From the NCBI RefSeq assembly GCF_014203735.1, contig NZ_JACHJQ010000006.1, positions 815,698-879,697 on the forward strand: a DNA stretch of 64,000 nt. The letters run 5' to 3'. Shown piece by piece: positions 1 to 14,194 of this stretch. This DNA comes from Actinophytocola algeriensis. GTDB taxonomy: Bacteria; Actinomycetota; Actinomycetes; Mycobacteriales; Pseudonocardiaceae. Made by a program: the position numbers and the translations under genes. The stretch's first letter is position 1, and each line of letters starts with the position of its first letter. The notes under the pieces are model-generated. The model was not told where the DNA came from. It did no database searches and was given only the letters and a program-made list of their open reading frames with translations.

Positions 1-725
1 ACCTTCAGCGCGGGCTGGCACAGCTCGGCGTCGCCCTCGACGAGCGTCGCACCCTCGGCCCCCTGCTTGACCACGAGCGTCGCCGGTTCCGGCAGCAGCG
101 CGCGGATCTGTCCCGGCTCCTCGACACCCCACACGAGCTTGGCCTCGTCGGCGCCGACGAACACGACGTCCGCGGCGGCGGCGAGGTCCCGCAGCACCGA
201 GGGGTCGCGGTCGGCCCAGAGCCGGGGCCGCCAGTTGAGGTCGAACGACAGCGTGAAGTCCCGTGGCCGGTGCACCAGGCGGTCCATCAGCGCGAGGCAG
301 CTGTCCGACAGCGCGGGCGTGATCCCGCTGGTGTGCACGACCCGCACCTCGTCGAGCGGCAGCTCGTCGAGCAGCGCGGGCCCCATGCCGGAGGCGGCGG
401 AGCCGCGGCGGTAGTAGCGGACCGGGCTGCCGGAGGCGTCGCGTTCCTTGACGTACAGGCCGGTCGGCCGGTCCTGGTCGACCGCGACGCGGGACACGTC
501 GACGCCGAACGACGCGACCGCGGCGGTGACGGCCGTGCCGAACGCGTCGTCGCCGACCGCGCTCACCCACGCCGACCGCAGCCCGAGCGCGGCGACGTGG
601 CAGGCCACATTGGACTCCGCGCCGCCGACCGTCCGGTGCCACGTGGTCACCTCGGCGGGCGGGCCCGGTTCGGCGGGCACGAACATGGCCATGGTCTCGC
701 CGAGGCACAACACATCGGTACGCAC
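1..725 (-). CDS. PfkB-family sugar kinase, probable 2-keto-3-deoxygluconate kinase (3' end cut by window edge)
   Basis: About 241 N-terminal residues are present; the C-terminus with the usual PfkB catalytic GAGD region lies outside the window. The opening (RTDVLCLGETMAMFVP) and the sugar-binding stretch TVGGAESNVACHVAALG are typical of PfkB kinases annotated as KDG kinases. The GTG start at 725 has GGAGG about 10 bases upstream. It is divergent from the deaminase at 835 and separated from it by a tandem operator. With the KDPG aldolase at 3791 it would phosphorylate KDG to KDPG. Substrate is inferred from context; fructokinase or ribokinase are alternatives. Confidence 0.85.
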   Translation of the reverse strand, partial: MRTDVLCLGETMAMFVPAEPGPPAEVTTWHRTVGGAESNVACHVAALGLRSAWVSAVGDDAFGTAVTAAVASFGVDVSRVAVDQDRPTGLYVKERDASGSPVRYYRRGSAASGMGPALLDELPLDEVRVVHTSGITPALSDSCLALMDRLVHRPRDFTLSFDLNWRPRLWADRDPSVLRDLAAAADVVFVGADEAKLVWGVEEPGQIRALLPEPATLVVKQGAEGATLVEGDAELCQPALK

Positions 726-782
726 GAGTGCCGCGCCTCCTCCGCCGTTGACTGGCCGGCCGAGGAGATGCTACACAACTTC

Positions 783-820
783 GTGGCACATAGCGCAATA
801 GCCGTTGCAAGATACGCAAT
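783..820. promoter_or_regulatory. Tandem 17-bp operator between the kinase and the deaminase
   Basis: Read on the minus strand this is ATTGCGTATCTTGCAAC, 4 bases, then ATTGCGCTATGTGCCAC. Each 17-mer is an imperfect TTGC...GCAA palindrome and the centres are 21 bp apart, two helical turns. The same architecture recurs at 7371-7408. TTGC/GCAA half-sites are typical of IclR-family regulators, so an IclR-type repressor is the likely binder. That assignment is inference; no such gene is in the window. Confidence 0.7.
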
Positions 821-834
821 ATGAGGTGAGCGGA

Positions 835-2148
835 TTGCCGCAGATCACTCCGGGCCGGCTGAACCCCGGCGCACTCGACGCGCTCCTCGACGAGCGCATC
901 GACTGGCGCTTCAAGGGAATTCCGGCCGCACTGTCCGGATTGTCCATACGGGACGCCAGGGCGCGCGGCGTGAACCTCTTCTCCGACGGGTTCCTCCCTC
1001 CGGTCACCGTCCTCGACGAGCCGGCACTCACCCACAACCTCACCACGATGGCCGCCCTGTGCGCACGCCACGGCTTCGCCCACGCGCCGCACGGCAAGAC
1101 CACGATGGCGCCGCAGCTGTTCGCGCGGCAGTTCGAGCACGGCGTGTGGGGGCAGACCACGGCCAACGCGAGCCAGCTGCGGATCTACCGCGCGTTCGGC
1201 GTGAACCGGGTGATCCTCGCGAACGAGCTGGTCGACGCCGCCGCGCTGCGGTGGCTCGCGGGTGAGCTGGACCGCGACCCGGACTTCGAGTTCTGGTGCT
1301 GGGTCGACACCGAACGCGGCGTCGAGCTGATGACCGCCGCACTGCGCGAGGCGGCACCGTCCCGGCCGGTGGACGTGCTGATCGAGCTGGGGGTGGCGGG
1401 TGGCCGCACCGGGTGCCGGGACCGGACCGCGGCGCTGAAGGTCGCGGAGGCCGTCGCGGCGAGCCCGGTGCTGCGGCTGACCGGGGTCGCGAGCTACGAG
1501 GGCGCGGTGTCCCGCAACGCGTCCGCCGACGGGCTCGCCGCCGTGCACGACCACCTGACCGAGCTGCGGTCGCTGGCACTGGACCTCGCGGAACGCGGGC
1601 ACTTCGACGGGGTGGCCCAGGTGGTCGTGACCGCGGGCGGCAGCTCGTTCTTCGACCAGGTCGTCGAGGTGCTCGGCGCGCCGTGGCCGGACGGGCTGCC
1701 CGTGCTGCCGGTGCTGCGCAGCGGTGCGTACCTGACGCACGACGAGGGCTACTACGAGCGCAACTCGCCGCTCGGCGCGACTCCCCGGCTCGACGGCGCG
1801 CGGCTGCGGCCCGCGGTGCGGGCGTGGGCGCAGGTCACCTCGCGCCCGGAGCCGCGGCTCGCGTTCATCACCGCAGGCAAACGGGACGTGCCCTACGACA
1901 TCGATCTGCCGGTGCCGGAGCTGCGGCGGGTGGACGGGGTGACCTCGGAGCTGACCGGCTGCGTGGTCACGTCGGTCAACGACCAGCACGGGTTCGTCAC
2001 GCTCGGCACGGACGCGGCGCTGGAGGTCGGCGACTGGGTCGGTCTCGGGCTTTCCCACCCGTGCACGACGTTCGACAAGGTCCCGCTGATGCCGATGGTC
2101 GGCGCCGACGGCGAGACCGTGGTCGACCTGATCCGCACGTTCTTCTGA
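835..2148 (+). CDS. PLP-dependent D-amino-acid/D-glucosaminate deaminase (alanine racemase N-domain, D-serine dehydratase-like)
   Basis: This 437-residue protein has an alanine-racemase-type barrel with the PLP lysine in PHGKTTMAPQL (about K88), and a C-terminal D-serine-dehydratase-like domain ending with the metal-site motif SHPCTTFDK (H408, C410). The family eliminates ammonia from D-serine or D-glucosaminate. The TTG at 835 is preferred because GAGGTG sits 6 bases upstream; GTG 826 is possible, and an earlier TTG at 805 would lie inside the operator. Its stop overlaps the next start (TGATG). Beside a deacylase, a KDG kinase and a KDPG aldolase, D-glucosaminate to KDG is the most economical role. 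Confidence 0.82.
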   Translation: MPQITPGRLNPGALDALLDERIDWRFKGIPAALSGLSIRDARARGVNLFSDGFLPPVTVLDEPALTHNLTTMAALCARHGFAHAPHGKTTMAPQLFARQFEHGVWGQTTANASQLRIYRAFGVNRVILANELVDAAALRWLAGELDRDPDFEFWCWVDTERGVELMTAALREAAPSRPVDVLIELGVAGGRTGCRDRTAALKVAEAVAASPVLRLTGVASYEGAVSRNASADGLAAVHDHLTELRSLALDLAERGHFDGVAQVVVTAGGSSFFDQVVEVLGAPWPDGLPVLPVLRSGAYLTHDEGYYERNSPLGATPRLDGARLRPAVRAWAQVTSRPEPRLAFITAGKRDVPYDIDLPVPELRRVDGVTSELTGCVVTSVNDQHGFVTLGTDAALEVGDWVGLGLSHPCTTFDKVPLMPMVGADGETVVDLIRTFF

Positions 2149-3752
2149 TGCTGACCTTCCGCGGCGCGACGGTGGTCGACGGCACCGGTGCCCCCGCCCG
2201 CCGGGCCGACGTGACCGTCGACGGTGGCCGGATCACCGCGATCGGCGACGGTGGCGGCGGCCGTGTCGTGGACGCCGGCGGGCTCGTGCTGACGCCCGGG
2301 TTCATCGACATGCACGCGCACTCCGACCTGCAGGTACTGGCGAAGCCCGACCACCTGGCGAAGGTCTCGCAGGGGGTCACGCTCGAGGTGCTCGGCCAGG
2401 ACGGGCTGTCGTACGCACCGGTCGACGACGACACGCTCGCCGCCCTGCGCGCACAGCTCGCCGGGTGGAACGACGACCCGCCCGGGTTCGACTGGGACTG
2501 GCGCGGCGTCGGCGAGTACCTCGACCGGCTCGACAAGGGCATCGCGGTGAACGCGGCATACCTCGTGCCGCAGGGGACCGTGCGGATGCTCGTGGTGGGC
2601 TGGGAGTCGCGGCCAGCCACGGAGTCCGAAGTGGACCGGATGCGGGCGCTGGTGGCGACCGGACTCGCCGAGGGGGCCATGGGCATGTCGTCCGGGCTCA
2701 CCTACACACCCGGCATGTACGCCGACACCGCCGAACTCGTCGCACTGTGCGAGGTCGTCGGCACGGGCGGCGGGTACTACAGCCCGCACCACCGCAGCTA
2801 CGGCGCCGGTGCGCTGGCGGCGTACGCGGAGATGGTCGACGTGTCGCGGCGGTCCGGCTGCCCGCTGCACCTCGCGCACGCCACGATGAACTTCCCCGTC
2901 AACGAAGGCCGCGCGGGTGAGCTGCTGTCGTTGCTGGACGACGCGATCGCGGACGGCTGCGACATCTCGCTCGACACCTACCCGTACCTGCCCGGCGCGA
3001 CCTACCTGTCCGCGCTGCTGCCGAGCTGGGCCACCGAGGGCGGCCTGGACCCGACACTCGCCCGTCTGTCCGATGTGGACATCCGGGAGCGGATCCGCGC
3101 CGACCTCGAGGACCACGGCTCGGACGGCTGCCACGGCGTGCCCGTCGACTGGGACGCGATCGAGGTCAACGGCGTCCGCCGCGACGAGAACGCCCACCTG
3201 GTGGGGAAATCGGTCGCGGCATCGGCGCAGGAGGCCGGCAGGCCGCCTGCCGAGCTGTACTTCGACACCCTGATCAGCGAGAAGCTCGGCACGTCGTGCC
3301 TCATGCACGTCGGGCACGAGGACAACGTCCGCGCGATCATGCGGCACGCCGCCCACACCGGCGGCAGCGACGGGCTGCTGGTCGGCGAGCGCCCGCACCC
3401 GAGGGCGTGGGGCACGTTCCCGCGCTACCTCGCGCGGTACGTGCGTGAGCTGGGGGTGCTGAGCCTCGAAGAATGCGTCGCGCACCTGACGGGCCGGGCC
3501 GCGCGGCGGCTCCGGCTGACCGACCGCGGGCTCGTGCGGGAGGGTTACGCCGCCGACCTCGTGCTGTTCGACCCGGACACCGTGGCCGACACGGCGACGT
3601 TCGACGAGCCGCGCCAGGCGGCGGCCGGCATCCCGTACGTGCTGGTGAACGGCGTTCCCGTCATCGAGGACGGCAGGCACACCGGCGCGCTCGCCGGGCA
3701 CTCGATCCGCAACACGACGGATCGTTCACTCCGCGAGCCACACCGGACCTGA
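2148..3752 (+). CDS. N-acyl-D-amino-acid deacylase (amidohydrolase superfamily), possible N-acetylglucosaminate deacetylase
   Basis: This 534-residue metal-dependent amidohydrolase has the family metal site GFIDMHAHSD (H56, H58), a middle YSPHHRSY stretch, and the late D-aminoacylase signature GSDGLLVGERPHPRAWGTFP. It overlaps the upstream stop by one base, so it is translationally coupled to the deaminase. D-aminoacylases remove acyl groups from N-acyl-D-amino acids. In this neighbourhood N-acetyl-D-glucosaminate, giving D-glucosaminate and acetate, fits better than a peptide-derived substrate. An alternative is general N-acetyl-D-amino-acid salvage. Confidence 0.88.
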   Translation: MLTFRGATVVDGTGAPARRADVTVDGGRITAIGDGGGGRVVDAGGLVLTPGFIDMHAHSDLQVLAKPDHLAKVSQGVTLEVLGQDGLSYAPVDDDTLAALRAQLAGWNDDPPGFDWDWRGVGEYLDRLDKGIAVNAAYLVPQGTVRMLVVGWESRPATESEVDRMRALVATGLAEGAMGMSSGLTYTPGMYADTAELVALCEVVGTGGGYYSPHHRSYGAGALAAYAEMVDVSRRSGCPLHLAHATMNFPVNEGRAGELLSLLDDAIADGCDISLDTYPYLPGATYLSALLPSWATEGGLDPTLARLSDVDIRERIRADLEDHGSDGCHGVPVDWDAIEVNGVRRDENAHLVGKSVAASAQEAGRPPAELYFDTLISEKLGTSCLMHVGHEDNVRAIMRHAAHTGGSDGLLVGERPHPRAWGTFPRYLARYVRELGVLSLEECVAHLTGRAARRLRLTDRGLVREGYAADLVLFDPDTVADTATFDEPRQAAAGIPYVLVNGVPVIEDGRHTGALAGHSIRNTTDRSLREPHRT

Positions 3753-3772
3753 CTGTTCACTCCGCAAGCTAC
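3724..3772 (+). repeat. Pair of 18-bp direct repeats at the deacylase/aldolase junction
   Basis: GTTCACTCCGCGAGCCAC at 3724-3741 lies inside the deacylase 3' end and GTTCACTCCGCAAGCTAC at 3755-3772 just after its stop; 16 of 18 bases match at a 31-base period. A related sequence in the opposite orientation is at 63436-63452. This may be a fragment of a gene-end repeat rather than a regulatory site. Confidence 0.5.
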
Positions 3773-3790
3773 GTTCAGAAGGAGTCTGAC

Positions 3791-4408
3791 ATGGACCTGC
3801 TCGCCGAACTCGGTGCCCGGCGCGCGCTGTGCATCATCCGCGCGCCGATCATCCCCGATCCGGTGGGGCTCGCGCGGACCCTCGTCGAGGCGGGCCTGCC
3901 GATCGTCGAGTTCGCGCTGACCACCCCGGACGCGCCACGGCTCATCGAGGAGGCGGCGCGGGTGGAGGGGCTGATCCTCGGCGCGGGCACCGTGATGTCC
4001 GAACAGGACGCCCGCGACGCGATCAACGCTGGCGCGACGTTCCTGCTCACCCCCGGGCTGCGGCCCGCGGTCGCGGAGGAGGCGGTGCGGCAGCAGGTGC
4101 CGATCGTGCTCGGCGCGATGACCCCGACCGAGGTGGCGACCGCGGTCGACCTTGGCGCGACGGCGGTGAAGGTGTTCCCCGCGGCGCGGCTCGGCCCGGC
4201 GTACTTCTCGGACCTGCACGGCCCGTACCCGGACGTGAACCTGGTCGCCACCGGCGGCCTGAACGCGGAGAACGCCGCGGCATACCTGGCGGGCGGCGCG
4301 ATCGCCGTGACCGCGGGCAGCGGTGTGGTGGGGCCCAAGCTCGCGGCCGAGTCAAGGCTCGCGGAGATCGCACAGCGCGCGAAGGAATTCCTCGCGGCCA
4401 TCGGATAG
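3791..4408 (+). CDS. eda: 2-dehydro-3-deoxy-6-phosphogluconate (KDPG) aldolase
   Basis: This is a 205-residue class I aldolase, the normal length for Eda. The glutamate in IVEFAL (E40), the GAGTV phosphate/substrate loop, LTPG, and the Schiff-base lysine in KVFPA (K127) are all present. ATG 3791 is preceded by AGAAGGAG. It would split KDPG to pyruvate and glyceraldehyde 3-phosphate, the last step of the route built from the neighbouring genes. The family also includes 4-hydroxy-2-oxoglutarate aldolases. Confidence 0.92.
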   Translation: MDLLAELGARRALCIIRAPIIPDPVGLARTLVEAGLPIVEFALTTPDAPRLIEEAARVEGLILGAGTVMSEQDARDAINAGATFLLTPGLRPAVAEEAVRQQVPIVLGAMTPTEVATAVDLGATAVKVFPAARLGPAYFSDLHGPYPDVNLVATGGLNAENAAAYLAGGAIAVTAGSGVVGPKLAAESRLAEIAQRAKEFLAAIG

Positions 4409-4426
4409 AACCGCACAAGGAGACGA

Positions 4427-5821
4427 ATGTCGGGGTTCGTTGACTGGCTGCAGCACTCCACACCGGGGTTGCTGCTGCTCGCCGCGGTGGGCATCGCGGT
4501 GCTGCTGTCGCTCATCATCAGGTGGAAGGTCGAGCCGTTCATCGCGCTGCTCGTGATCGGCCTGCTGACCGCGCTCGCCGCCGGGCTGCCAGTGCAGTCG
4601 CTGGTCGGTTCGGCGCAGAAACCCGGCGAGTCGTTGCTGGAGACGGGTTTCGGCGGCATCCTCGGCCACATCGCCGCGATCATCGGCCTTGGCACGATGC
4701 TCGGTGCGATCCTCGAGGCGTCCGGCGGCGCGCAGGTGCTGACCAGATCGCTGCTGCGTGCGCTCGGTGAGAACCGGGCGCCGCTGGCGATGGGGCTGGC
4801 GGGCCTGATCTTCGGCGTCCCGGTGTTCTTCGACGTGGGCATCTTCGTGCTGGCGCCGCTCGTGTACGTGGCGGCCAAGCAGGGCGGCAGGTCGATCCTG
4901 CTGTACTGCCTGCCGCTGCTCGCGGGCCTGTCGGTGACGCACGCCTTCCTGCCACCACATCCCGGACCCGTTGCCGCGGCGGGACTTCTGGGTGTGGACC
5001 TCGGCTGGGTGATCCTGATGGGCGCCGTGTGCGCGATCCCCGCGTGGTACGTGGGCGGCGTGCTGTTCTCGTCGTGGATCGGCAAGCGGATCGACATCCC
5101 GGTCCCCGAGGAGATGCTGGCGGCGGCGGAGACCGAGCGGGAGGGCGACGAACCGGGGCTCGGCATGGTCGTCGGCATCATCGCGATCCCGCTGGTGCTG
5201 ATCCTGGCCGGGACGTTCGGCAGCATCTGGCTCCCCGCCGGCTCCACCGCGGCCGGCGTCGCGAACTTCATCGGCACCCCGGCGATCGCGCTGACCATCG
5301 CCGTGCTGCTGGCGTTCTGGCTGCTGGGTTACCGCCGCGGCATGACCAAGTCGCAGGTCGCGGACCTGAGCGCGGCGTCGCTGCGGCCGGTCGGCATGAT
5401 CCTGCTGGTCGTGGGTGCCGGCGCGTTCTACGGCGCGGTCCTGAAGGCGACCGGCATCGGTGGCGTGATCGCCGGCAGCCTGCACGACGCTGGCCTGCCG
5501 GTGATCTTCGCGGCGTACGTGATCAGCTGCGGGCTGCGGATCGCGCAGGGTTCCGCGACGGCCGCGATCGCCGCGTCGGCCGCCATCATCGGCCCGACCA
5601 TCAAGGACGTCGGCTACTCGCAACCACAGCTGGCGCTGATCGCGGCGGCCATCTGCGCCGGTTCGATCATCGCCTCGCACGTCAACGACGGCGGGTTCTG
5701 GATCGTGTCGCGGTACTTCGGCATCTCGGTCAAGGACACGCTGAAGACGTGGACCGTGCTGGAGACGATACTGTCGGTGGTCGGCTTCGCGGTGGCGGCG
5801 ATACTGATGGCGGTGATCTGA
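4427..5821 (+). CDS. GntP-family gluconate/aldonate permease
   Basis: This 464-residue protein is hydrophobic throughout, with about 12 predicted membrane segments. GntP hallmarks include the glycine-rich ETGFGGILGHIAAIIGLG region, the VFFDVGIF segment and HAFLPPHPGP. The family imports gluconate-type sugar acids with protons. In this operon N-acetylglucosaminate or glucosaminate is the likely cargo. It starts 18 bases after the aldolase stop behind an AAGGAG site and its stop overlaps the lactonase start as TGATG. Confidence 0.9.
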   Translation: MSGFVDWLQHSTPGLLLLAAVGIAVLLSLIIRWKVEPFIALLVIGLLTALAAGLPVQSLVGSAQKPGESLLETGFGGILGHIAAIIGLGTMLGAILEASGGAQVLTRSLLRALGENRAPLAMGLAGLIFGVPVFFDVGIFVLAPLVYVAAKQGGRSILLYCLPLLAGLSVTHAFLPPHPGPVAAAGLLGVDLGWVILMGAVCAIPAWYVGGVLFSSWIGKRIDIPVPEEMLAAAETEREGDEPGLGMVVGIIAIPLVLILAGTFGSIWLPAGSTAAGVANFIGTPAIALTIAVLLAFWLLGYRRGMTKSQVADLSAASLRPVGMILLVVGAGAFYGAVLKATGIGGVIAGSLHDAGLPVIFAAYVISCGLRIAQGSATAAIAASAAIIGPTIKDVGYSQPQLALIAAAICAGSIIASHVNDGGFWIVSRYFGISVKDTLKTWTVLETILSVVGFAVAAILMAVI

Positions 5822-6852
5822 TGCTGGACCGACGGGAGTTCCTCGGGTACGCGGGCTTCGTCACGGCCGCGTTCGCGCTGGCCCGGGGTGCGGGCGAGCT
5901 TTCCGCTCCGTCCACTGTGTACCTCGGTAGTTTCGGCGCGGACCTGCGGACCGGTGCGGTGGCCGACGACGGCACGCTGACGGTCACCGGCTCGGTCGCC
6001 GGGGTGCCGGACGCGTCGTTCCTGGCGTTCCACGACCGGTTCCTGTACACCACGAACGAGGGTCAGGGCCGCGTCACCGCGATCGACCGCACCACGAACG
6101 CGGTGCTGAACACGCGGTCCAGCGGCGGCGCGGGCCCGACACACGTCTCGGTGCACCCGTCCGGCCACCTGCTCACCGCGAACTACACGTCGGGTTCCGT
6201 TGCCGTGCACGCGTTGGACGACGACGGCTCGATCGGCGAGCAGACCGACCTCGTGCGGCACGAAGGCGACCGCGACCCCCACGCCCACCAGGTTCTCCCG
6301 TCCGGCGAGTGGGTGCTGGCGGTCGACCTCGGCACCGACTCGGTGTACGTGTACGGGCTGGCGGACGGGAAGCTCACGCAACACCAGCAACTCCGGCTCC
6401 CGGCCGGTGCCGGCCCACGCCACCTGGCGTTCCACCCGACCGAGCCGCTGGTCTACATCCTGGGCGAGCTGCGCCCGGAGATCACGGTGGCGCGGTGGGA
6501 GGACGGGACACTCACCCCGGGCCAGGTCATCCCGACCGCGGGAGACGGCAACTTCCCTGCGGAGATCACGGTCAGCGCCGACGGCCGGTTCGTGTACGCG
6601 TCCAACCGCGGCGACAACACGATCGCGGCGTTCGTCGTGTCCGGCGACCAGCTCACCGCACTGGGCGCCACCCCGACCGGCGGCGACTGGCCACGGCACT
6701 GCACGCTCAGCCCGGACGAGCGGTGGATGTACGTGTCGAACCAGAACTCCGGCACCGTCACGTGGCTCCCCCGCGACCCGGCCACGGGCACCCTCGGCGC
6801 GTCGGCGGGCTCGGCACCGGTGCCGTCGGTGGGCATCGTCGCCTGGCCCTGA
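5821..6852 (+). CDS. Tat-exported seven-bladed beta-propeller lactonase
   Basis: A 343-residue protein opens with a twin-arginine signal (DRREFLGYAGF followed by a hydrophobic stretch), so it should be exported folded. The rest is the lactonase/6-phosphogluconolactonase-like beta-propeller, with repeated HVSVHPSGHLL, LYTTNEGQG and VYASNRGDN blades and HLAFHPTEP. It is fused by a one-base stop/start overlap to the aldonate permease. An exported lactonase beside an aldonate importer suggests opening of a sugar 1,5-lactone outside the membrane before uptake. Substrate is inferred. Confidence 0.8.
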   Translation: MLDRREFLGYAGFVTAAFALARGAGELSAPSTVYLGSFGADLRTGAVADDGTLTVTGSVAGVPDASFLAFHDRFLYTTNEGQGRVTAIDRTTNAVLNTRSSGGAGPTHVSVHPSGHLLTANYTSGSVAVHALDDDGSIGEQTDLVRHEGDRDPHAHQVLPSGEWVLAVDLGTDSVYVYGLADGKLTQHQQLRLPAGAGPRHLAFHPTEPLVYILGELRPEITVARWEDGTLTPGQVIPTAGDGNFPAEITVSADGRFVYASNRGDNTIAAFVVSGDQLTALGATPTGGDWPRHCTLSPDERWMYVSNQNSGTVTWLPRDPATGTLGASAGSAPVPSVGIVAWP

Positions 6853-6927
6853 CGCCGGCCCAGCACCGCGACGACGGTCGTGCCGGACGCGCGGACCGCC
6901 ATCCGGCAAGGGTATCGTCGCCGGGCG

Positions 6928-7326
6928 ATGAGCGACGACGACGAACTCTGGGTCGACAGCGCCGACCGCAAGGTGGCGCTGCGAGCGCTGGCCGAGCACC
7001 GGGACTCCGCACACCTGACGACGGCGGAACACGACCGCCGCCGGGACCTGGTGCGTGACGCGCAGACCCGTGCCGACCTCCGCGCGTTGTTCGCCGACCT
7101 GCCCTCGCCGCACCCGCTCATGGGCGAGGAGCGCGACGGCTGGGAGGCGACGCCGGGCAGCCGTCCCGCGGCCGAGACACCGGACGGCGCCAGCAATGGC
7201 ACCGGCGTCGTGCTCGGCAGTGGCGGTCTCATCGTGCTCGGTGCACTTGTCGCCGGGTGGTGGCTACCCGCGATCCTCCTCGCCTGCGTCGTCGTGGTCG
7301 TGACCGTGCTGGTCGCCGCCCGCTGA
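6928..7326 (+). CDS. DUF1707-domain membrane protein
   Basis: This 132-residue protein has an N-terminal SHOCT-like DUF1707 region (WVDSADRKVALRALAEHRDS...DLRALFADLP, residues about 8-67). A linker and two closely spaced hydrophobic segments follow at the C-terminus (about 89-131). Such proteins are widespread in actinobacteria and of unknown function. It lies between the two sugar-acid units without an obvious link to them. A weak hairpin GTGCC/GGCAC follows at 7342-7357. Confidence 0.75.
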   Translation: MSDDDELWVDSADRKVALRALAEHRDSAHLTTAEHDRRRDLVRDAQTRADLRALFADLPSPHPLMGEERDGWEATPGSRPAAETPDGASNGTGVVLGSGGLIVLGALVAGWWLPAILLACVVVVVTVLVAAR

Positions 7327-7370
7327 TTGGTCCAGACCCTTGTGCCGGTGGTGGCACCTCTCTAGCATCC

Positions 7371-7408
7371 GTTGCGGAATGCAGAACGTCCATTGCGCAT
7401 AGTGCAAC
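7371..7408. promoter_or_regulatory. Tandem 17-bp operator upstream of the ABC importer operon
   Basis: GTTGCGGAATGCAGAAC, a 4-base spacer, then ATTGCGCATAGTGCAAC. The second site is a near-perfect TTGCGC/GTGCAA palindrome. Size (38 bp), spacer and 21-bp period equal the site at 783-820, so one regulator probably controls both units. The operator ends 12 bases before the solute-binding-protein start, covering the likely ribosome-binding/leader region. Confidence 0.7.
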
Positions 7409-7420
7409 GGGGGTCCCACC

Positions 7421-8710
7421 ATGAAGTTCCGACGGACACTGGCTGTTGCCGCTCTCGGCGCGCTCGCAATCGGTTGCGCGCCACCGCAGGCGTCGAACGA
7501 CACCTCGGGGCAGAGCGAGGAGACCACTGGCGAACTGCGTGTCTGGCTGTTCCAGGAGGCGTCCAACGCCGCCAAGGAGGCCGTTGTCGACGAGGCGAAG
7601 GCCGAGTTCGAGAAAGCACATGACGGCGTCACCGTGAACGTCGAGTACCTGCCCGTCGACGGCCGCGCGTCCCGCTTCAACGGTGCCTTCAACGACAAGG
7701 CGAGCGCCCCCGACGTGGCCGAGTTCGGCAACACCGACCTCGCGGGCTACACCGCGTCGAACGGGTTCGCCGACCTGACCGCCGACCTCGGGTCGTGGCC
7801 GGACAGCAAGGACCTGGTGCCCGAGGTGCTCGACACGGCCACAGTGGACGGCAAGACCTACGGCATCCCCTGGTACACCGGCACCCGCGCGCTCTACTAC
7901 CGGACGGACGTCTTCACCGAACTCGGCCTGAAGCCGCCCGCGACGCTCGACGAGCTGACCGCGACGGCGCGCCAGATCCGAGCCGCGAAGCCGGACCTGT
8001 ACGGGATCGCGGTCGGTGGCAAGTACCAGTTCGCGCTCCTGCCCTACATCTGGGCCAACGGCGGCGACGTGGCCGAACAGGACGGTGAGACCTGGAAGGC
8101 CACGATCGACTCGGCGGCGGCCCGTGCCGGGCTCAGCCAGTACGCCGAGCTGATCAGCGAGGACATCTGCCCGCCCGCCGCGTGCGCGCAGCTCACCGGC
8201 AGCCAGTCCGTCGCCGCATTCGCCGGCGGCAAGGCCGCGATGACGATCGGCGGCGACTTCAACCGGGCCGCGGTCGACGCCGGTGCCGTCAAGGGCAAGT
8301 ACGCCGTGATCCCCTTGCCCGGCAAGACCGAGGGCTCAATCGCACCGGCGTTCGCGGGCGGCAACCTGCTCGGCGTGTTCGCCTCCAGCAAGAAGCGCAC
8401 GCTCGCGCTGGACTTCGTGCAGCTCCTGGGCGGCAAGACCTACCAGGAGAAGATGTTCGGCGCGATGGGCAACATGCCCACGTTCACCGACGTGCAGGAC
8501 CGCGTCGCGGCCGACGACCCGTTCCTCCAGCCGTTCATCGAGACCGTCCAGAGCGGGACCCGTTTCGTTCCGTCGACTCCGGCCTGGACGAAGATCGACG
8601 CGGCAGGCGTGCTGCCGACCACGGTCCAGCAGGTCGCGACCGGGCAGCTGGACGTGGCCGCGGCCACCAGCGCGGCGGCGGCCGAGATGAACGAAGCCTT
8701 CGGCAGCTGA
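7421..8710 (+). CDS. Extracellular sugar-binding lipoprotein of an ABC transporter (family 1)
   Basis: This 429-residue protein has a lipoprotein signal ending LAIGC (modified cysteine about C19). The rest is a family-1 solute-binding fold, with a WLFQEASNAAKEAVVDEAKA N-terminal lobe, YGIPWYTGTRALYYR and KAAMTIGGDFN. It is the first gene of a four-gene operon with two permeases and a GH20 hexosaminidase. Chitobiose-, GlcNAc- or chitobionate-type ligands are therefore likely. Its stop overlaps the permease start (TGATG). Confidence 0.9.
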   Translation: MKFRRTLAVAALGALAIGCAPPQASNDTSGQSEETTGELRVWLFQEASNAAKEAVVDEAKAEFEKAHDGVTVNVEYLPVDGRASRFNGAFNDKASAPDVAEFGNTDLAGYTASNGFADLTADLGSWPDSKDLVPEVLDTATVDGKTYGIPWYTGTRALYYRTDVFTELGLKPPATLDELTATARQIRAAKPDLYGIAVGGKYQFALLPYIWANGGDVAEQDGETWKATIDSAAARAGLSQYAELISEDICPPAACAQLTGSQSVAAFAGGKAAMTIGGDFNRAAVDAGAVKGKYAVIPLPGKTEGSIAPAFAGGNLLGVFASSKKRTLALDFVQLLGGKTYQEKMFGAMGNMPTFTDVQDRVAADDPFLQPFIETVQSGTRFVPSTPAWTKIDAAGVLPTTVQQVATGQLDVAAATSAAAAEMNEAFGS

Positions 8711-9609
8711 TGGCGTTCGCGCACCGGCGGGACGGGCGCGCCGCCCTGCTGTACCTGCTGCCCGCGGCGGTCGTGCTGCTGGCGCTGCTGGCCTACCCGA
8801 TCTACCAGCTGGTCGTCATCTCGCTGTACGACTACGGACAGCCACAGGCCAGCGGCGCGGCGCCGCTCGTGTTCCTCGGGGTGGACAACTACGTCACGCT
8901 CCTGTCGGACCCGCGGTTCTGGGACGTCCTGCTCACGACGGTCGTGTTCGCGGCGGTCTGCGTCGTCGGGACGCTGCTCGTCGGCACGGCGCTGGCGGTG
9001 CTGGCGAACCGCGCGCGGACCGTGCCGAGGACGCTGCTGTTCCTCGCCGCGCTGGGTGCGTGGGCGACGCCGACGATGGCGGGTTCGTACGTGTGGCTGT
9101 TCCTGTTCGACCAGGACTTCGGGCTCGTCAACGAGGCGCTGGGGAGTCTCGGTTTCGACGGGATGCGCGGCCATTCCTGGACGTTCGAACGGTTCTCCGC
9201 GTTCGGGCTGGTCGCCGCGGAGATCATCTGGTGCTCGTTCCCGTTCGTGCTGGTCACCATGTACGCGGGCATCAAGGCGATCCCCGGTGAGGTGATCGAG
9301 GCGGCGGCGCTGGACGGCGCGTCGGCCCGCCGCACGGCGACGGCGGTGATCCTGCCGATCCTGCGGCCGCTGCTGATGATCGCGACGATCCAGTCGATCA
9401 TCTGGGACTTCAAGGTGTTCACGCAGATCTACGTGATGACGAACGGCGGTGGCGTGGCCGGGCAGAACCTGGTGCTCAACGTGTTCGCGTACCAGAAGGC
9501 GTTCGCCGGTGAGCAGTACGGCCTCGGCGCGGCGATCGGGGTGGTCATGACCGTGCTGTTGCTGCTGATCACCGGGCTCTACGTGCGGGCGCAGCGGGGT
9601 GTGCGGTGA
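8710..9609 (+). CDS. ABC sugar transporter permease (MalF-type)
   Basis: This 299-residue inner-membrane protein has six predicted helices and the ABC-permease EAA loop EAAALDGASARRTATAVILP that docks the ATPase. It is translationally coupled on both sides. No ATP-binding subunit is encoded in this operon; such actinobacterial importers commonly share a general MsiK-type ATPase encoded elsewhere, which is an inference here. Confidence 0.92.
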   Translation: MAFAHRRDGRAALLYLLPAAVVLLALLAYPIYQLVVISLYDYGQPQASGAAPLVFLGVDNYVTLLSDPRFWDVLLTTVVFAAVCVVGTLLVGTALAVLANRARTVPRTLLFLAALGAWATPTMAGSYVWLFLFDQDFGLVNEALGSLGFDGMRGHSWTFERFSAFGLVAAEIIWCSFPFVLVTMYAGIKAIPGEVIEAAALDGASARRTATAVILPILRPLLMIATIQSIIWDFKVFTQIYVMTNGGGVAGQNLVLNVFAYQKAFAGEQYGLGAAIGVVMTVLLLLITGLYVRAQRGVR

Positions 9610-10445
9610 GGCGCGGGCAGCTCGTCGTCGACGTCGCGTGCGTGGTGATCGCCGCGGTCGTGGCGTTCCCGCTGTACTGGATGGTGCTGTCGGCGCTCAA
9701 GCCGGCGGGTGAGGTGCAGTCGGCGAACCCCCGCCCGTGGACCGGAGCGCCCACTCTGGACAGTTTTCGCCGGGTGCTCGACGTGGAGAACTTCGGGCTG
9801 TACTTCGTGAACAGCCTCGTGGTCGCGTTGCTGGTGGTCGCGCTGTCGCTGGTGGTGTCGTTCCTGTCGGCCGTGGCGCTGACCAGGTTCCGGTTCCGCG
9901 GCAGGACCGTGCTGGTAGTGATGCTGCTGGTGGCGCAGATGGTGCCGGTGGAGGCGCTGACCATCCCGCTGTTCTTCCTGATGCGGTCGTTCGGCGACGT
10001 GGTACCCGCGATCGGGCTGAACCAGCTGGGCGCGCTCGTGGTGGTGCACCTGGCGTTCAGCCTGCCGTTCGCGATCTGGATGCTGCGCGGCTTCGTGGCG
10101 ACCGTGCCCGACGAGCTGGCGGAGGCGGCGGCACTCGACGGCGCGTCCCGGTTCCGCTTCACGTGGCAGGTGTTGTTCCCGCTGGTGGCTCCCGGTCTGG
10201 TCGCGGCGAGCGTGGTGTCGTTCATCCACGCGTGGAACGACTTCCTGTTCGCGAAGACGTTCCTCATCTCGGGCACCGACAACCGCACGCTCCCGTTGGG
10301 GCTGCTGGTGTTCTTCAAGCCCGAGGAGCAGGACTGGGGCGCGATCATGGCCGGTTCGACGTTGATGACGCTCCCGGTGCTGGCCTTCTTCCTGATCGTG
10401 CAACGACATCTGGTGTCCGGCATGGCCGGGGCGGTGAAGGGGTGA
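9606..10445 (+). CDS. ABC sugar transporter permease (MalG-type)
   Basis: This 279-residue partner permease has the EAA loop EAAALDGASRFRFTWQVLFP and the C-terminal pattern usual for MalG homologues (DWGAIMAGSTLMTLPVLAFF, then a GAVKG end). The GTG start shares four bases with the preceding stop, and the gene in turn overlaps the hexosaminidase by four bases. Confidence 0.92.
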   Translation: MRRGQLVVDVACVVIAAVVAFPLYWMVLSALKPAGEVQSANPRPWTGAPTLDSFRRVLDVENFGLYFVNSLVVALLVVALSLVVSFLSAVALTRFRFRGRTVLVVMLLVAQMVPVEALTIPLFFLMRSFGDVVPAIGLNQLGALVVVHLAFSLPFAIWMLRGFVATVPDELAEAAALDGASRFRFTWQVLFPLVAPGLVAASVVSFIHAWNDFLFAKTFLISGTDNRTLPLGLLVFFKPEEQDWGAIMAGSTLMTLPVLAFFLIVQRHLVSGMAGAVKG

Positions 10446-11866
10446 CCGTGTTCGAAGGACTGCTGCCACGCCCGGTACGGGTGACGCCGACGGGCGGGAC
10501 GTTGCATGATCCGCCCGCGCCGACGTTCGCCAAGGACCTGTCGCTGCCGCCGTCGGGTTTCCGGCTGACCGTGTCGTCGGACGGTGTGCACGTCGAGTCG
10601 GCCGACCCGGCGGGCGAGTTCTACGGTTTCCAGGCACTGCGGCAGCTGCGGGGCCCGGCGGCGTTCCGCGCGGTCGACCTCCCCGGTGACCCGTTGCCGT
10701 GCGGTGTGGTCGAGGACTGGCCCAGGTTCTCCTGGCGCGGCTGTCTGCTGGACGTGGCGAGGCACTTCATGCCGAAGTACGCCGTGCTGCGCTTCCTGGA
10801 CCTGATGGCCGCGCACCGGCTGAACGTGCTGCACCTCCACCTGACCGACGACCAGGGCTGGCGCCTGGAGGTCCCGGAGTACCCGAAGCTCACGACGGTG
10901 GGCGCGTGGCGAGCGGGTTCGTGGACCGGCCGCCCACCGGACGGCACCCCGGGCCACGACGGCCGCCCGCACGGCGGGTACTACACGGTGGACGACCTGC
11001 GGGAGATCGTGGCGTACGCGGCGGAGCGGCACATCACGGTGGTCCCGGAGATCGACGTGCCGGGCCACAGCCAGGCAGCGATCGCGGCGTACCCGTGGCT
11101 GGGCGTGACCGGCGAGCGCCTCGAGGTCCTGACCCGGTGGGGCGTCAACGAGAACGTGCTGGCCATGACCGACGAGGTGGTCGACTTCTACCGCAGGGTC
11201 CTGACCCACGTGACGGAGATCTTCCCGTCCGAGGTGATCTGCCTCGGCGGCGACGAGGTCCCGGCGACGCAGTGGGCCGCGGACCCTGGTTCGGTGGACC
11301 GCGCGGCCGACCTCGGTCTGTCGAATGTGGACTCGCTGCACGGCTGGTTCGTGGCCCAGCTGGCCACCCACCTGGAGTCGCTGGGCCGCAGGGCATCCGT
11401 GTGGGACGAGGCCCTGTCCCCCAGGCTGCCACCCCGCACGATCGTCGCTGCCTGGCACCCGGACGTCGACGCCGGGGGGCACGACGTGGTGCTGTGCCCG
11501 GAGGACCACCTGTACCTGGACCACCGCCAGTCCGACCACCCCTCCGAGCCGATCCCGGTGGGGTACCTGCGGACGCTGGCAGACGTGTACGCGTACGAGC
11601 CGTCGGCGTCGGCGCTGGGTGCGCAGGCGCAGGTGTGGTCCGAGCACCTGGACTCGCCTCGGCGCGTGGACTACGCGGCGTTCCCGAGGCTGGCGGCGTT
11701 CGCGGAGGTGGTGTGGAGCGGTCCGGACCGCTCGTACGAGGAGTTCGAGCAACGGCTGATCGCACACCACCTGCCACGGCTGGACGCGCTGGGCGTGGAG
11801 TACCGCCCGCTGGCGGGCCCGCATCCGTGGCAGACCCGGCCCGGGGTGCCGGGTCGCCCCCGCTGA
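10442..11866 (+). CDS. Beta-N-acetylhexosaminidase, GH20, cytoplasmic
   Basis: This is a 474-residue glycoside hydrolase family 20 enzyme. It has the barrel motifs HLHLTDDQGWRLEVPEYPKL, VVPEIDVPGHSQAA and the catalytic Asp-Glu pair in LGGDEVP (D271, E272). There is no signal peptide, so it should act on imported oligosaccharide. GTG 10442 overlaps the permease stop by four bases. It would release GlcNAc from chitobiose, or GlcNAc plus N-acetylglucosaminate from chitobionate, linking the ABC importer with the aldonate genes upstream. Confidence 0.92.
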   Translation: MTVFEGLLPRPVRVTPTGGTLHDPPAPTFAKDLSLPPSGFRLTVSSDGVHVESADPAGEFYGFQALRQLRGPAAFRAVDLPGDPLPCGVVEDWPRFSWRGCLLDVARHFMPKYAVLRFLDLMAAHRLNVLHLHLTDDQGWRLEVPEYPKLTTVGAWRAGSWTGRPPDGTPGHDGRPHGGYYTVDDLREIVAYAAERHITVVPEIDVPGHSQAAIAAYPWLGVTGERLEVLTRWGVNENVLAMTDEVVDFYRRVLTHVTEIFPSEVICLGGDEVPATQWAADPGSVDRAADLGLSNVDSLHGWFVAQLATHLESLGRRASVWDEALSPRLPPRTIVAAWHPDVDAGGHDVVLCPEDHLYLDHRQSDHPSEPIPVGYLRTLADVYAYEPSASALGAQAQVWSEHLDSPRRVDYAAFPRLAAFAEVVWSGPDRSYEEFEQRLIAHHLPRLDALGVEYRPLAGPHPWQTRPGVPGRPR

Positions 11867-11884
11867 CCAGCGCACGGCTGGTCA
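11864..11884 (+). terminator. Hairpin at the end of the hexosaminidase operon
   Basis: TGACCAGC, a 5-base loop, GCTGGTCA: a perfect 8-bp stem that begins at the hexosaminidase stop codon. There is no T-run, as is common in actinobacteria, so its terminator role is plausible rather than certain. Confidence 0.5.
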
Positions 11885-12025
11885 CGCCGGCGGTGGTTTG
11901 CTCCGCGCGGCAATGCCACCGAGGTCGTCGTCGGCCTGGAAGGACTGGCGCTGTCCGGCGTGGCCTTGTACGGAGCGGTGGCGCTCGGCGTGCTGCGCTC
12001 ACGCCCGGTCAGCGCGCGCAGCTGA
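11867..12025 (+). other. Start-less reading frame after the hexosaminidase (possible gene remnant)
   Basis: In the same frame as the hexosaminidase, about 52 codons run from just after its stop to TGA at 12023-12025. They contain a plausible membrane segment (EVVVGLEGLALSGVALYGAV). No start codon with a ribosome-binding site is visible. It could be the tail of a decayed membrane gene or chance. The rest of the gap to 12112 shows nothing I recognise. Confidence 0.25.
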
Positions 12026-12112
12026 CCATCGACCACGCGGCGCGCACCACCCGAGGTTCGCTCTGAGCATGACGCGTTGCCGCGGCGAACAGCGAAGCGG
12101 ATCGTCGGGACC

Positions 12113-12838
12113 ATGGCCGTCATCGCGCACCTCAGCGACCCGCACCTCACCACCGGCCCACTGGGCGCGGCACCAGCGACCGCTCTGTACCGGGCACTGG
12201 GCCGCGTCCGCACGCTCGACCCGCCACCCGACCGCGTCGTGATCACCGGCGACCTGGTCGAACACGGCACCCCCGAGGAATACCGGGCCCTGCACGAGGT
12301 GATCGGCCGCTTCCCGCTCCCACTGCACCTCGTGGCGGGCAACCACGACAACCCGGAGAAGCTCCTCGCCGAGTTCGGGAACACCCGGTTCCTCGGCGGG
12401 ACAACGCACTACACCGCCGACACCCTCGTCGTCCTCGACTCCGCCGCCGGGTACCTCGGTGCGGAGCAGCTGGCGTGGCTCGACCGCACGCTGGCCACCA
12501 CCGGCCCGGCGTTCGTCTGCCTGCACCACCCGCCGATCCCGGTCGGCATACCGTTCCTCGACCGGCAGCGCCTGACCGACGGCGAGCAACTGGCCGCGGT
12601 GGTCGAAAGGCACGACGTCACCGCCGTTCTCGCCGGGCACGTCCACCGCCACGTCACCGCCGCCTTCGCCGGCACGATCCTCGTCACCGCACCCAGCACC
12701 CACCTCCAGAGCGGGCTCGCCATGACCGGCACGGTCCCGGACTACCTTCCCGAACCGACGTCGTTCCTGCTCCACCTCGACGGGACAACGCACACGGTCC
12801 CGGTCAGCCATGCTGCCGGGACCGTTGCCTGCTACTGA
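12113..12838 (+). CDS. Calcineurin-like metallophosphoesterase (cyclic-nucleotide phosphodiesterase-type)
   Basis: This 241-residue protein has the full set of metal-ligand motifs: LSDPHL (residues 7-12), GDLVEHG, GNHD and GHVHRH. The layout matches class III cyclic-nucleotide phosphodiesterases (CpdA/Rv0805-like). The ATG at 12113 starts directly before the first motif, as in relatives; a TTG 12 codons earlier is unlikely. It ends one base from the convergent protease gene. Substrate cannot be told from sequence. Confidence 0.85.
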   Translation: MAVIAHLSDPHLTTGPLGAAPATALYRALGRVRTLDPPPDRVVITGDLVEHGTPEEYRALHEVIGRFPLPLHLVAGNHDNPEKLLAEFGNTRFLGGTTHYTADTLVVLDSAAGYLGAEQLAWLDRTLATTGPAFVCLHHPPIPVGIPFLDRQRLTDGEQLAAVVERHDVTAVLAGHVHRHVTAAFAGTILVTAPSTHLQSGLAMTGTVPDYLPEPTSFLLHLDGTTHTVPVSHAAGTVACY

Positions 12839-12839
12839 C

Positions 12840-14066
12840 TCACCACATCGTCACGCCGTACGCGGGACCGTAGTACGCGAGGCTGTCCGCGATCGGGAAG
12901 TACCACGACACGTTCTGCCCGGCACCGACCGCGGCGGCGCAGCGGTAGCGGCTGCCGTCCCAGTACAGTTGCGCGCCGCTGGTGACACCCTCCGGCGACC
13001 AGTGCGACAGGGCCGCCACGTTCGCACCGCCCGAGTCGCCCGGTTCGACGCACGCCGAGTGGCGGGTCATGCCGTACACCGCGCCCTGGCTGTAGTTCAC
13101 GGTCTCGTCCTTGCCCGTGATGTAGCCGCAGGTCCACTTCGTCGTGATGCCCGACTTGCACAGGTACGTGCCGACCGGCGCGTCGCTGTGGCCGCTGACC
13201 GTGATGATCCCGCCGTTGGACGGGTTCGTGTCGACCCACCAGCCCTGGTACCAGTACGACGGGTTGTCGTTGCGGACCAGCGCGTCGTCGTAGCTCGGGA
13301 AGAAGCTGGCCACGGTGGTGCCGAGCACCACGCCGTCCTGGCCGTACACAGTGGACCCCGCACCGACGCAGTGACCCGCGGTCAGCAGGAAGCCCTGGCC
13401 GGTGTTCTGGTTGCGCAGGTTGAAGCCCGCCGAGCAGCTGCCGTAGTTGATCGCGTCGCCGCCGTCGAGGTAGTTGGCGGTCCGCACCGGCGCGCGGTCG
13501 GTCTGCTCGACGCGCACCGCGTCACCGAACTTCGCGAGCGCCGACAGGGACGCCTGCTGTCCCTTCACCGCGGTCACGACGACGCTGTTGGTCTTCTGGT
13601 CGACCCGCCAGCTCGCCAGGCCCCGCAGCTTCGAGACACCCTGCTTCGCGCGCCCGTCACCGGAAGCCTTGCCCGACAACGTGTCCAGCTCGGCACGGAC
13701 GGCGTCCAGCTCGGCGGCACTGTGCCGCACGACCTTCGCGGCGGCGCCCGCCTTCGTCACCTCGGCGACCCGCGCCTGGTCGGTGACGGCGACGGTCAGG
13801 CGACCGGCGGCCGCGTCGAACCAGGACCCACCGAAGTCGGCACCCAGCGACGAACGCAGGCGCACGTCGAGGTCGACGGCCCGGTCCTGCTGCCCCCGCA
13901 GCGTGGCCGCCTGCGCGGCCGTGAGACCCAGATCCCGTTGCATGGCAGCAAGAACCTCGTCGGACGCGGCGGGCCGGACCGGCGCGGCCGCGGCCGTCGA
14001 CTGCACCGCCACGGCGAGCGTGCCGACCGCCGCCGCGGTGACGAGGACGCGAACGAACTTTCTCAT
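12840..14066 (-). CDS. Secreted S1-family serine protease with alpha-lytic-type prodomain (streptogrisin-like)
   Basis: This 408-residue preproprotein has a Sec signal (residues 1-28, ending STAAAA) and a prodomain to about 195. The mature chymotrypsin-like domain begins near YLDGGDAINYGSCSAGFN. The catalytic triad is visible: TAGHC (H232), SYDDALV (D260/D261) and EPGDSGG (S345). ATG 14066 has GGGAG upstream. The prodomain acts as an intramolecular chaperone in this family. It probably degrades extracellular protein. Confidence 0.92.
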   Translation of the reverse strand: MRKFVRVLVTAAAVGTLAVAVQSTAAAAPVRPAASDEVLAAMQRDLGLTAAQAATLRGQQDRAVDLDVRLRSSLGADFGGSWFDAAAGRLTVAVTDQARVAEVTKAGAAAKVVRHSAAELDAVRAELDTLSGKASGDGRAKQGVSKLRGLASWRVDQKTNSVVVTAVKGQQASLSALAKFGDAVRVEQTDRAPVRTANYLDGGDAINYGSCSAGFNLRNQNTGQGFLLTAGHCVGAGSTVYGQDGVVLGTTVASFFPSYDDALVRNDNPSYWYQGWWVDTNPSNGGIITVSGHSDAPVGTYLCKSGITTKWTCGYITGKDETVNYSQGAVYGMTRHSACVEPGDSGGANVAALSHWSPEGVTSGAQLYWDGSRYRCAAAVGAGQNVSWYFPIADSLAYYGPAYGVTMW

Positions 14067-14194
14067 CCCTTGAATCTCCCCTGCTGTGGGTTTGCACGAA
14101 CGACAGGTGGGTCGTCGCACACCACCGGGGTCGTTAGACCACTCGAGGAGATACGCCCCAACGGGCACAACCAGGTTGAGCCAGGTCACAGACA

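Follow-up and report, generated by a model that had tools for sequence, protein, structure and literature searches.

A probable actinobacterial regulon for the catabolism of C1-oxidized chitin ends in Actinophytocola algeriensis

Organization of the locus

The stretch of DNA analyzed here (the window) is a 64-kb segment, C6:815698-879697, of the genome of the actinobacterium Actinophytocola algeriensis, which totals 9.73 Mb in 23 contigs. Positions 1..11866 carry genes for a predicted deacylase, a deaminase, sugar-acid enzymes, two transport systems and a cytosolic hexosaminidase. From the genes, their operators, the conservation of these operators and the association of the genes across genomes, all of which are observed directly, we infer that the locus is probably a catabolic regulon for the C1-oxidized ends of chitin, with chitobionate and N-acetylglucosaminate (GlcNAc1A) as the likely substrates, and with enzyme activities and induction as predicted from protein families and gene context. 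The principal genes are as follows, in window coordinates unless stated.

3..725, minus strand: PfkB-family sugar kinase, predicted 2-keto-3-deoxygluconate (KDG) kinase (Pfam PfkB, 1.9e-37); the gene runs past the window edge
L039 18763-19722, 18011-18766 and 17542-17925, all minus strand: the whole PfkB gene and the IclR and RidA genes, one operon; the latter two lie beyond the window edge
826..2148, plus strand: fold-type III pyridoxal phosphate (PLP) deaminase, D-serine dehydratase-like (Pfam D-ser_dehydrat, 2.6e-18); reading frame open from 805
2148..3752, plus strand: D-aminoacylase-superfamily amidohydrolase, predicted N-acetylglucosaminate deacetylase (Pfam Amidohydro_3, 2.1e-44)
3791..4408, plus strand: Eda, 2-keto-3-deoxy-6-phosphogluconate (KDPG) aldolase (Pfam Aldolase, 1.8e-37; TIGR01182, 160.8 bits, cut-off 156.05)
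4427..5821, plus strand: GntP-family permease, predicted N-acetylglucosaminate uptake (Pfam GntP_permease, 5e-129; TIGR00791, 387.7 bits, cut-off 292.75)
5821..6852, plus strand: 7-bladed beta-propeller lactonase with a twin-arginine-like N-terminus (Pfam Lactonase, 1.9e-82; start MLDRREFLG)
7421..8710, plus strand: lipoprotein substrate-binding protein (SBP) of an ATP-binding cassette (ABC) importer (Pfam SBP_bac_8, 8.9e-40; lipobox LAIGC by eye)
8710..9609, plus strand: ABC permease 1 (Pfam BPD_transp_1)
9606..10445, plus strand: ABC permease 2 (Pfam BPD_transp_1)
10442..11866, plus strand: family 20 glycoside hydrolase (GH20), beta-N-acetylhexosaminidase (Pfam Glyco_hydro_20, 1.1e-95), predicted to cleave chitobionate, i.e. 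N-acetylglucosamine (GlcNAc) linked to GlcNAc1A

Gene calls were backed by Pfam, and the genes named in the first-pass annotation, which had read this stretch as a complete system for oxidized chitin, were all recovered with clear Pfam matches. Completeness within 1..11866 holds in part: the named genes are there, but the IclR-family regulator and RidA lie just outside the window, where IclR_C/HTH_IclR and Ribonuc_L-PSP domains confirm them. The kinase is the first gene of the PfkB-IclR-RidA operon, which is divergent from the PLP unit. The part of the kinase inside the window has as its top NCBIfam match a KDG/2-keto-3-deoxygalactonate kinase model, scoring 133 bits and so staying below the cut-off of 400 bits.

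The lactonase was also claimed to be exported by the twin-arginine pathway, and its RREFLG start agrees with that prediction; N-termini of this type are found in 16 of 19 actinobacterial lactonase orthologs, those of L134, L142 and L173 showing none. The GH20 enzyme has no visible signal peptide and hence appears cytosolic by eye; its nearest solved relative is 3rcn (527 bits). The SBP-permease-permease-GH20 unit lacks an ATPase gene of its own. Such ATPase-less ABC operons are usual where a common MsiK-type ATPase serves several importers.

A palindrome shared by the two units

Upstream of both units lie copies of one palindromic element, each accompanied by a weaker tandem copy:

802..821: main operator between the PfkB and PLP enzyme genes, which diverge; putative IclR-family site (exact match 802-819, minus strand; matrix score 23.7)
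782..800: weaker tandem copy, 21 bp upstream of the main site (matrix score 12.6)
7391..7410: main operator before the ABC-GH20 operon (exact match 7393-7410, plus strand; matrix score 21.3)
7370..7388: weaker tandem copy upstream of the ABC-GH20 site (matrix score 14.2)

With up to two mismatches allowed, TTGCGNATNNTGCAACGG matches the window at 802-819 and 7393-7410 and nowhere else, both times exactly, and two matches were obtained in 0 of 100 shuffles. Across the whole genome the 15-base core of the operator has two exact copies, which are the two window sites; one mismatch adds five sites, a background level, the total of seven comparing with eight for the reversed control. A weight matrix was built from seven training sites of other genera (Tsukamurella, Arthrobacter, G278 and four Streptomyces-like genomes), all from the PLP/PfkB side. 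Applied to the window, the matrix places the two main operators first and second and the tandem copies next, with the best unrelated site at 8.5. A wider set of 120 related loci spans 1.88 Mb (a few genomes are probably counted twice, and some of the Streptomyces loci may be kin of the training loci); of its 127 hits scoring at least 15, 123 stand by the start of a cluster gene. On the shuffles, the genome-wide core count and this placement, a chance origin was rejected.

The four stray hits were considered separately. Three of these, in Amycolatopsis (L160 at 3595 and 5371, L159 at 3632), are long interspersed hairpin repeats whose TTGCGAAATTTGCAA-like cores mimic the operator; the fourth, in L164, lacks such an explanation. 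Likewise rejected was another site matching the pattern, at C1:268482 of G461, which has a matrix score of 7.4 and, by eye, an adjoining TetR-like gene. The operator also bears on gene structure: since the TTG codon at 805 sits within it, we consider GTG at 826 the more likely start of the PLP enzyme.

The element recurs where the two units are parted. The stricter pattern GTTGCNNNATNYGCAAC occurs nine times in 14 genomes with a close deacylase, against once for its reversed control; of these sites, five belong to the cluster, two stand before an unlinked SBP-GH20 operon and two before an Eda-like gene. The unlinked operon, found in two Streptomyces-like genomes, encodes an SBP with 53% and a GH20 enzyme with 50-53% identity to those of the window, a permease being recognized by a simple gene caller in one of the two. 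The Eda-like genes (36-38% identity) lie away from the cluster in two Streptomyces-like genomes, G369 and G182, with operator-like sites near L073 ~6612 and L074 ~6549. Within the family of A. algeriensis, genomes with the SBP operon away from the deacylase have a matrix match (15.8-26.7) directly before the SBP gene in 12 of 13 cases; all 24 fetched family loci with a recognized PLP gene have a match by its start, and 7 of the 13 linked family loci with an SBP have a second operator before that gene.

The first-pass proposal that a shared operator ties the GntP/lactonase unit to the ABC/GH20 unit is thus supported by the two exact copies in the window, by conservation of the operator across genomes and by its presence on the unlinked ABC-GH20 operon. 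As part of the overall explanation favored here, the IclR-family protein encoded with the kinase probably binds these GTTGC-N7-GCAAC operators. In the family genome G495 (L142, 1864-3396), a GH20 gene adjoining a dasR-like gene has an operator of its own (23.4), and this arrangement is another layout of the same regulon. A lone deacylase gene in G512 (L145, 4582-6221) has an operator scoring 22.3 before its start; no PLP, kinase or IclR gene was recognized within the 9 kb fetched around it.

Phyletic distribution and gene neighborhoods

A contig scan returned at least 450 relatives of the deacylase, of which the best 80, all actinobacterial by their record titles, were kept. They come from Saccharothrix, Umezawaea, Amycolatopsis, Lentzea, Saccharopolyspora, Actinokineospora, Actinomadura, Kribbella, Kitasatospora, Streptomyces, Nocardiopsis, Nocardia, Arthrobacter, Tsukamurella and other genera, and the closest among the matches listed, in Saccharothrix and Umezawaea, share 82% identity with the window protein. 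Neighbors were sought within about 9 kb of the deacylase, some loci ending earlier. In these best 80 of at least 450 loci the PLP enzyme is found 77 times, RidA 70, IclR 67, PfkB 64 and GntP 47 times, followed by Eda (18), the lactonase (11), the SBP (9) and GH20 (8); the SBP counted for L169 and L173 is the one adjoining dasR (see below). An operator-like site scoring above 17 is present in 68 of the 80. Hence the catabolic core is widely conserved in actinobacteria and is not a peculiarity of one odd locus. This qualifies the novelty suggested in the first-pass annotation, which knew of no such actinobacterial locus: we found no actinobacterial GlcNAc1A pathway among the open-licence papers listed, which is no proof of its absence in print, but with at least 450 deacylase relatives the locus is hardly unique. 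The words "Streptomyces," "Gram-positive" and "actinobacteria" are all absent from the main texts of two papers on GlcNAc1A catabolism.

In the congener G461 (L155, 6780-15546) the genes for the PLP enzyme, Eda, the SBP, the permeases and GH20 form a single run, with PfkB-IclR-RidA divergent from it. The run continues with a GH9 gene and a gene of the glucose/sorbosone dehydrogenase type.

The deacylase and the PLP enzyme

The ong pathway of Pseudoalteromonas prydzensis proceeds through the OngB deacetylase, the OngC PLP deaminase and KdgK, and RidA (OngD) is described as essential to it (PMC9537276). PpOngB (PDB 9kb1 and 9kb3; PMC12017989) and the window deacylase belong to the same superfamily, and 20 positions could be mapped between them from the PpOngB residues given in that paper. 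Three gammaproteobacterial homologs each have the PpOngB residue at 19 of the 20. The window deacylase keeps His68, His70, Tyr194, His222, His252, Tyr285, Asp368, Leu370 and Arg379, and differs at Cys97 (Asp), Glu226 (Tyr), Lys254 (Thr), Ala256 (Asn), Ser290 (Gly), Ser291 (Ala) and Ser292 (Thr). The Gln298 column, with Arg in the window protein and Gln in L019 and L020, gives no clean split, the loop columns being alignment-dependent. Among window-clade sequences, 17 rows were found without use of the motif; in these, Asp97, Tyr226, Asn256 and Thr292 are each present in 17/17 and Thr254 in 16, the exception being His in L019. The aspartate is invariant in 42 aligned deacylases, a count that partly reflects selection, since the scan patterns included GQDGLSYA with the Asp; it also occurs at the Cys position in some remoter homologs (e.g. 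L026, L028, L031, L038 and L055). The replacement of the Cys metal ligand by Asp therefore looks like a constrained alternative rather than decay.

A quick tree of 34 rows gives an SH-aLRT support of 99 to both the window clade and the OngB group, and pairs OngB with AfDam; forcing the window clade and OngB together costs 128 log-likelihood units in a quick search (approximately unbiased test, p-AU 0.00014). Neither its residues nor its phylogeny, then, make the window protein a strict OngB, and to call it the same deacetylase is wrong at the family level. The first-pass view that the locus follows the logic of the marine Pseudoalteromonas pathway stands for the gene set and fails for this enzyme. 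With diagnostic OngB residues absent and a separate place in the tree, the substrate of the deacylase cannot be read from homology, and the enzyme may act on a different acyl group or aminoaldonate. Among its top-scoring solved relatives are the D-aminoacylase of Alcaligenes (AfDam, PDB 1m7j) and an N-acyl-D-glutamate deacylase (3gip), which keep the metal-ligand Cys and the carboxylate-binding Lys (PMC12017989) that the window enzyme lacks; for AfDam our own alignment shows this as well.

Two other D-aminoacylases were seen alongside. About 15 kb beyond the window (L039, 1912-4297) lies one that has the common GNCG cysteine and precedes a further IclR-like gene; homologs occur in G461 and G489 (55-57% identity). 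The Klebsiella protein at L054 5983-7422 has the OngB signature at 19 of 20 positions, and PDB 9g5m ("Amidohydrolase family protein") looks like it or a near relative, judging from its printed start.

The PLP enzyme has as its best solved relative 3gwq, titled "D-serine deaminase," and shares the HGKTT and SHPC motifs with its counterparts in the ong-type loci L052, L053 and L054; we take the HGK lysine to be the Schiff-base lysine and the HPC motif to be the metal site. It is 31-35% identical to OngC homologs; in a tree of 21 rows, itself weakly resolved, these form their own branch and the actinobacterial sequences fall elsewhere. We predict that it converts D-glucosaminate to KDG and ammonia.

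These affinities raise the possibility that the locus scavenges D-amino acids, the deacylase freeing residues such as D-serine or D-threonine, the PLP enzyme deaminating them and the sugar genes being bystanders. The deacylase's best solved relatives do include a D-aminoacylase (280 bits), 3gwq is named for D-serine, and enteric relatives of the PLP gene have genes for an amino-acid ABC transporter, IclR and RidA as neighbors. Against this, PfkB and GntP are linked in 64/80 and 47/80 of the loci counted above, and the operator also stands before an Eda-like gene in two genomes and before the GH20-sugar importer operon in many, yet PfkB, GntP, Eda and the GH20-importer are all needless for the use of N-acyl-D-amino acids. 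We therefore regard D-amino-acid scavenging as quite unlikely. The union of a kinase, a KDPG aldolase and GntP with a beta-hydroxy-amino-acid deaminase points instead to an aminoaldonate.

Association with chitin-related genes

A further control element may be shared with chitin metabolism. The window contains one site resembling the DasR-responsive element (dre):

7326..7341: DasR dre-like site ATTGGTCCAGACCCTT, with four mismatches to the 16-bp consensus

The consensus is A(G/C)TGGTCTAGACCA(G/C)T (PMC4398421). Taken alone the window site is not significant, the 12-base core with up to two mismatches giving one match against 1.15 expected in 64 kb. It recurs, though, in position: 14 of 23 SBP promoters, the window's included, have a match with at most four mismatches, in every case 89-138 bp before the start, compared with 11 of 1000 segments drawn at random from the window. 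In two Actinokineospora loci (L169 and L173) the cluster is adjoined by a dasR-like gene and an ABC importer, and in G495 (L142) by a dasR-like gene and an SBP gene. The L169 regulator aligns with solved DasR at 267 bits and that of L142 has the GntR-UTRA architecture, while that of L173 was assigned from its near-identical start alone. Within the same overall explanation, DasR would provide a second control on the import operon. An apparent lytic polysaccharide monooxygenase (LPMO) next to the cluster in L169 and L173 was rejected, the match being a CBM2 domain at the end of the locus.

The first-pass annotation had suggested a search for AA10 LPMO genes in the same genome, and four LPMO_10 genes are present. 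One encodes a protein whose nearest solved chains include 5aa7 ("chitinase"), 5ftz ("chitin binding protein") and CBP21, and which also has a stretch resembling domain 1ed7 of chitinase A1. Of 200 family genomes, counted without correction for genome size and kinship, 125 have the deacylase, 139 have LPMO_10 and 118 have both. The SBP was found in 94, one of which was dropped as a weak hit; LPMO_10 is present in 93/93 of the remainder and the deacylase in 91/93. Counted by genus, the deacylase accompanies the SBP in 24 of 24, and an LPMO is present in 31 of the 33 genera with the deacylase. Among 396 genomes sampled across the phylum, LPMO_10 accompanies a close deacylase in 12 of 15, which are A. 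algeriensis itself and 11 genomes of one genus; this wider association is therefore phylogenetically thin and is given little weight here.

Instead of an LPMO, a sugar dehydrogenase could supply the true substrate of the same pathway, which would then be some other N-acetylated aminoaldonate, such as N-acetylgalactosaminate or N-acetylmannosaminate, or oligomers of it. β-linked N-acetylgalactosamine is an established GH20 substrate, the C4 configuration is not fixed by the Eda and PfkB families, and a glucose/sorbosone-type dehydrogenase gene lies near the G461 cluster (L155). The DasR-like sites, the dasR-like neighbors and the co-occurrence with LPMOs point to chitin, and we judge this alternative unlikely. 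A still less probable one, which we consider very improbable, is that the IclR regulon serves general aminosugar or peptidoglycan salvage with GlcNAc1A as an incidental substrate. Some cluster-bearing genomes do lack an LPMO_10 gene, but such carriers could scavenge oxidized oligomers made by neighbors, and salvage of GlcNAc or N-acetylmuramic acid is known to need no lactonase, GntP or KDG-type lower pathway. A hyaluronan or uronate origin of the KDG was set aside, no uronyl hydrolase, KduI or KduD occurring among the named units, although no search was aimed at these.

A model for the use of oxidized chitin ends

The interpretation that we favor, a regulon for C1-oxidized chitin ends, can be laid out as a sequence of predicted steps. 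Secreted LPMOs, encoded elsewhere in the genome, and chitinases would yield chitobionate and GlcNAc1A, partly as the lactone, which the exported lactonase may open. The SBP/permease importer would bring in chitobionate, to be split by the cytosolic GH20 enzyme into GlcNAc and GlcNAc1A, while free GlcNAc1A would enter through GntP. Digestion of C1-oxidized oligomers with the chitobiase SmCHB is described as ending at chitobionate (PMC10067821), which would account for a dedicated importer and GH20 enzyme. By the families concerned and by analogy with the proven ong pathway, the D-aminoacylase-like enzyme would take the acetate off GlcNAc1A, the PLP enzyme, helped by RidA, would remove water and ammonia from D-glucosaminate to give KDG, PfkB would phosphorylate KDG and Eda would produce pyruvate and glyceraldehyde 3-phosphate. 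IclR would act on the operators of the catabolic and the import-hydrolysis operons, and DasR additionally on the import operon. The pathway logic and chitin link put forward in the first pass gain from operator conservation, the DasR-like sites, the dasR-like neighbors, the LPMO genes and the lactonase in a Vibrio ong locus (below).

Several observations weigh against this interpretation. The window's dre-like site has four mismatches and 9 of the 23 SBP promoters have five or more. The strict operator pattern is present in just 6 of the 14 close-deacylase genomes; an operator is missing from the unlinked SBP of L127, 6 of the 13 linked SBPs have none of their own, and L156, which has an SBP and no PLP gene in its stretch, has no match. 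Within the family, LPMO_10 is missing from 7 of 125 deacylase genomes and the deacylase from 21 of 139 LPMO genomes, the corresponding numbers in the phylum-wide sample being 3 of 15 and, for the close deacylase, 4 of 16. The deacylase is without Cys97, Lys254, Ser292 and, depending on the alignment, Gln298 of OngB and falls outside the OngB group, and the best-scoring solved relatives of both it and the deaminase are D-amino-acid enzymes. Finally, the congeners G461 and G489 have the ABC-GH20 unit and no close Asp-type deacylase. As a replacement we found just a Cys-type homolog with 42-44% identity and no strong operator in the examined stretches.

We also lean, with somewhat less assurance, towards the view that actinobacteria assembled the pathway independently of the marine one. 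This would represent a second recruitment of a D-aminoacylase-type enzyme as GlcNAc1A deacetylase, from another branch and with Asp for the Cys ligand, under a dedicated IclR repressor sensing the oxidized product and under DasR, the master regulator of chitin use; in Streptomyces and relatives the products of LPMOs would then have a regulon of their own, apart from the one for hydrolytic use of chitin. Actinobacteria are leading degraders of chitin in soil and the source of model LPMOs. Streptomyces coelicolor is credited with seven putative LPMOs (PMC10067821). The catabolism of oxidized chitin has so far been worked out mainly in marine bacteria, and the key enzyme differs here. If the model is true, it gives the fate of LPMO products in soil, adds another lineage of deacetylases, ties oxidized chitin to control by DasR, and implies that many actinobacterial genes annotated as D-aminoacylase or alanine racemase encode carbohydrate enzymes.

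Neighboring genes

Two further open reading frames flank or interrupt the cluster:

~6925-7326: small open reading frame between the two units, DUF1707-like by eye only, probably unrelated to the pathway
12840-14195, minus strand: open reading frame like a secreted serine protease, adjoining the cluster and, by eye, apparently unrelated to it

Relationship to the das and ong systems

The import operon resembles the DasR/das chitobiose system of Streptomyces in having an SBP and two permeases without an ATPase of their own and in its dre-like promoter site. It differs in its SBP, in its own GH20 gene, in the extra IclR-type operator and in the tie to an aminoaldonate lower pathway. The S. coelicolor numbers SCO2943-2946, which we take to denote an ABC-GH20 operon, could not be confirmed.

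The ong cluster further includes the GH20 enzyme OngA, a sodium/solute symporter (SSS) and an RpiR repressor, with kdgA added in Vibrio, Klebsiella and Serratia (PMC9537276). In the survey part of that 2022 paper, complete clusters are placed in Gammaproteobacteria, bar one Achromobacter. For Aeromonas, one study (PMC11653859) reports that close OngB and OngC are missing and allows for other deacetylases. We recovered ong-type loci from P. piscicida (L052), Vibrio sp. THAF191c (L053) and K. pneumoniae (L054). The Vibrio locus (6592-17868) has the order RpiR-like (by eye), PLP enzyme, deacylase, RidA, SSS-like (by eye), PfkB, Eda, GH20 and lactonase. Its lactonase is 30% identical to that of the window over 317 aa and, like the three actinobacterial exceptions, shows no twin-arginine-like start; the word "lactonase" is absent from the main texts of both ong papers. 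With a lactonase following GH20 in this locus, the two genes join the pathway in two phyla.

As in the ong cluster, a D-aminoacylase-fold deacylase, a fold-type III PLP deaminase, a KDG-type kinase and RidA are encoded together (across the window and L039), and GH20 falls under the common operator, whether linked or unlinked, as judged from the sites. The aldolase gene is shared with the clusters of Vibrio, Klebsiella and Serratia, the lactonase with one Vibrio, and a local regulator gene is likewise present. Unlike in the ong cluster, the actinobacterial deacylase comes from a different branch, and neither the SSS symporter OngIT nor the RpiR regulator OngR is found, GntP and IclR standing in their place. 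An ABC importer and a cytosolic GH20 enzyme are predicted here, as opposed to a TonB receptor and a periplasmic GH20 enzyme, and there are DasR-like sites and a different phylum. On these comparisons of sequence the locus is a variant of the ong kind, predicted to work alike, and not a member of it by descent of the key enzyme.

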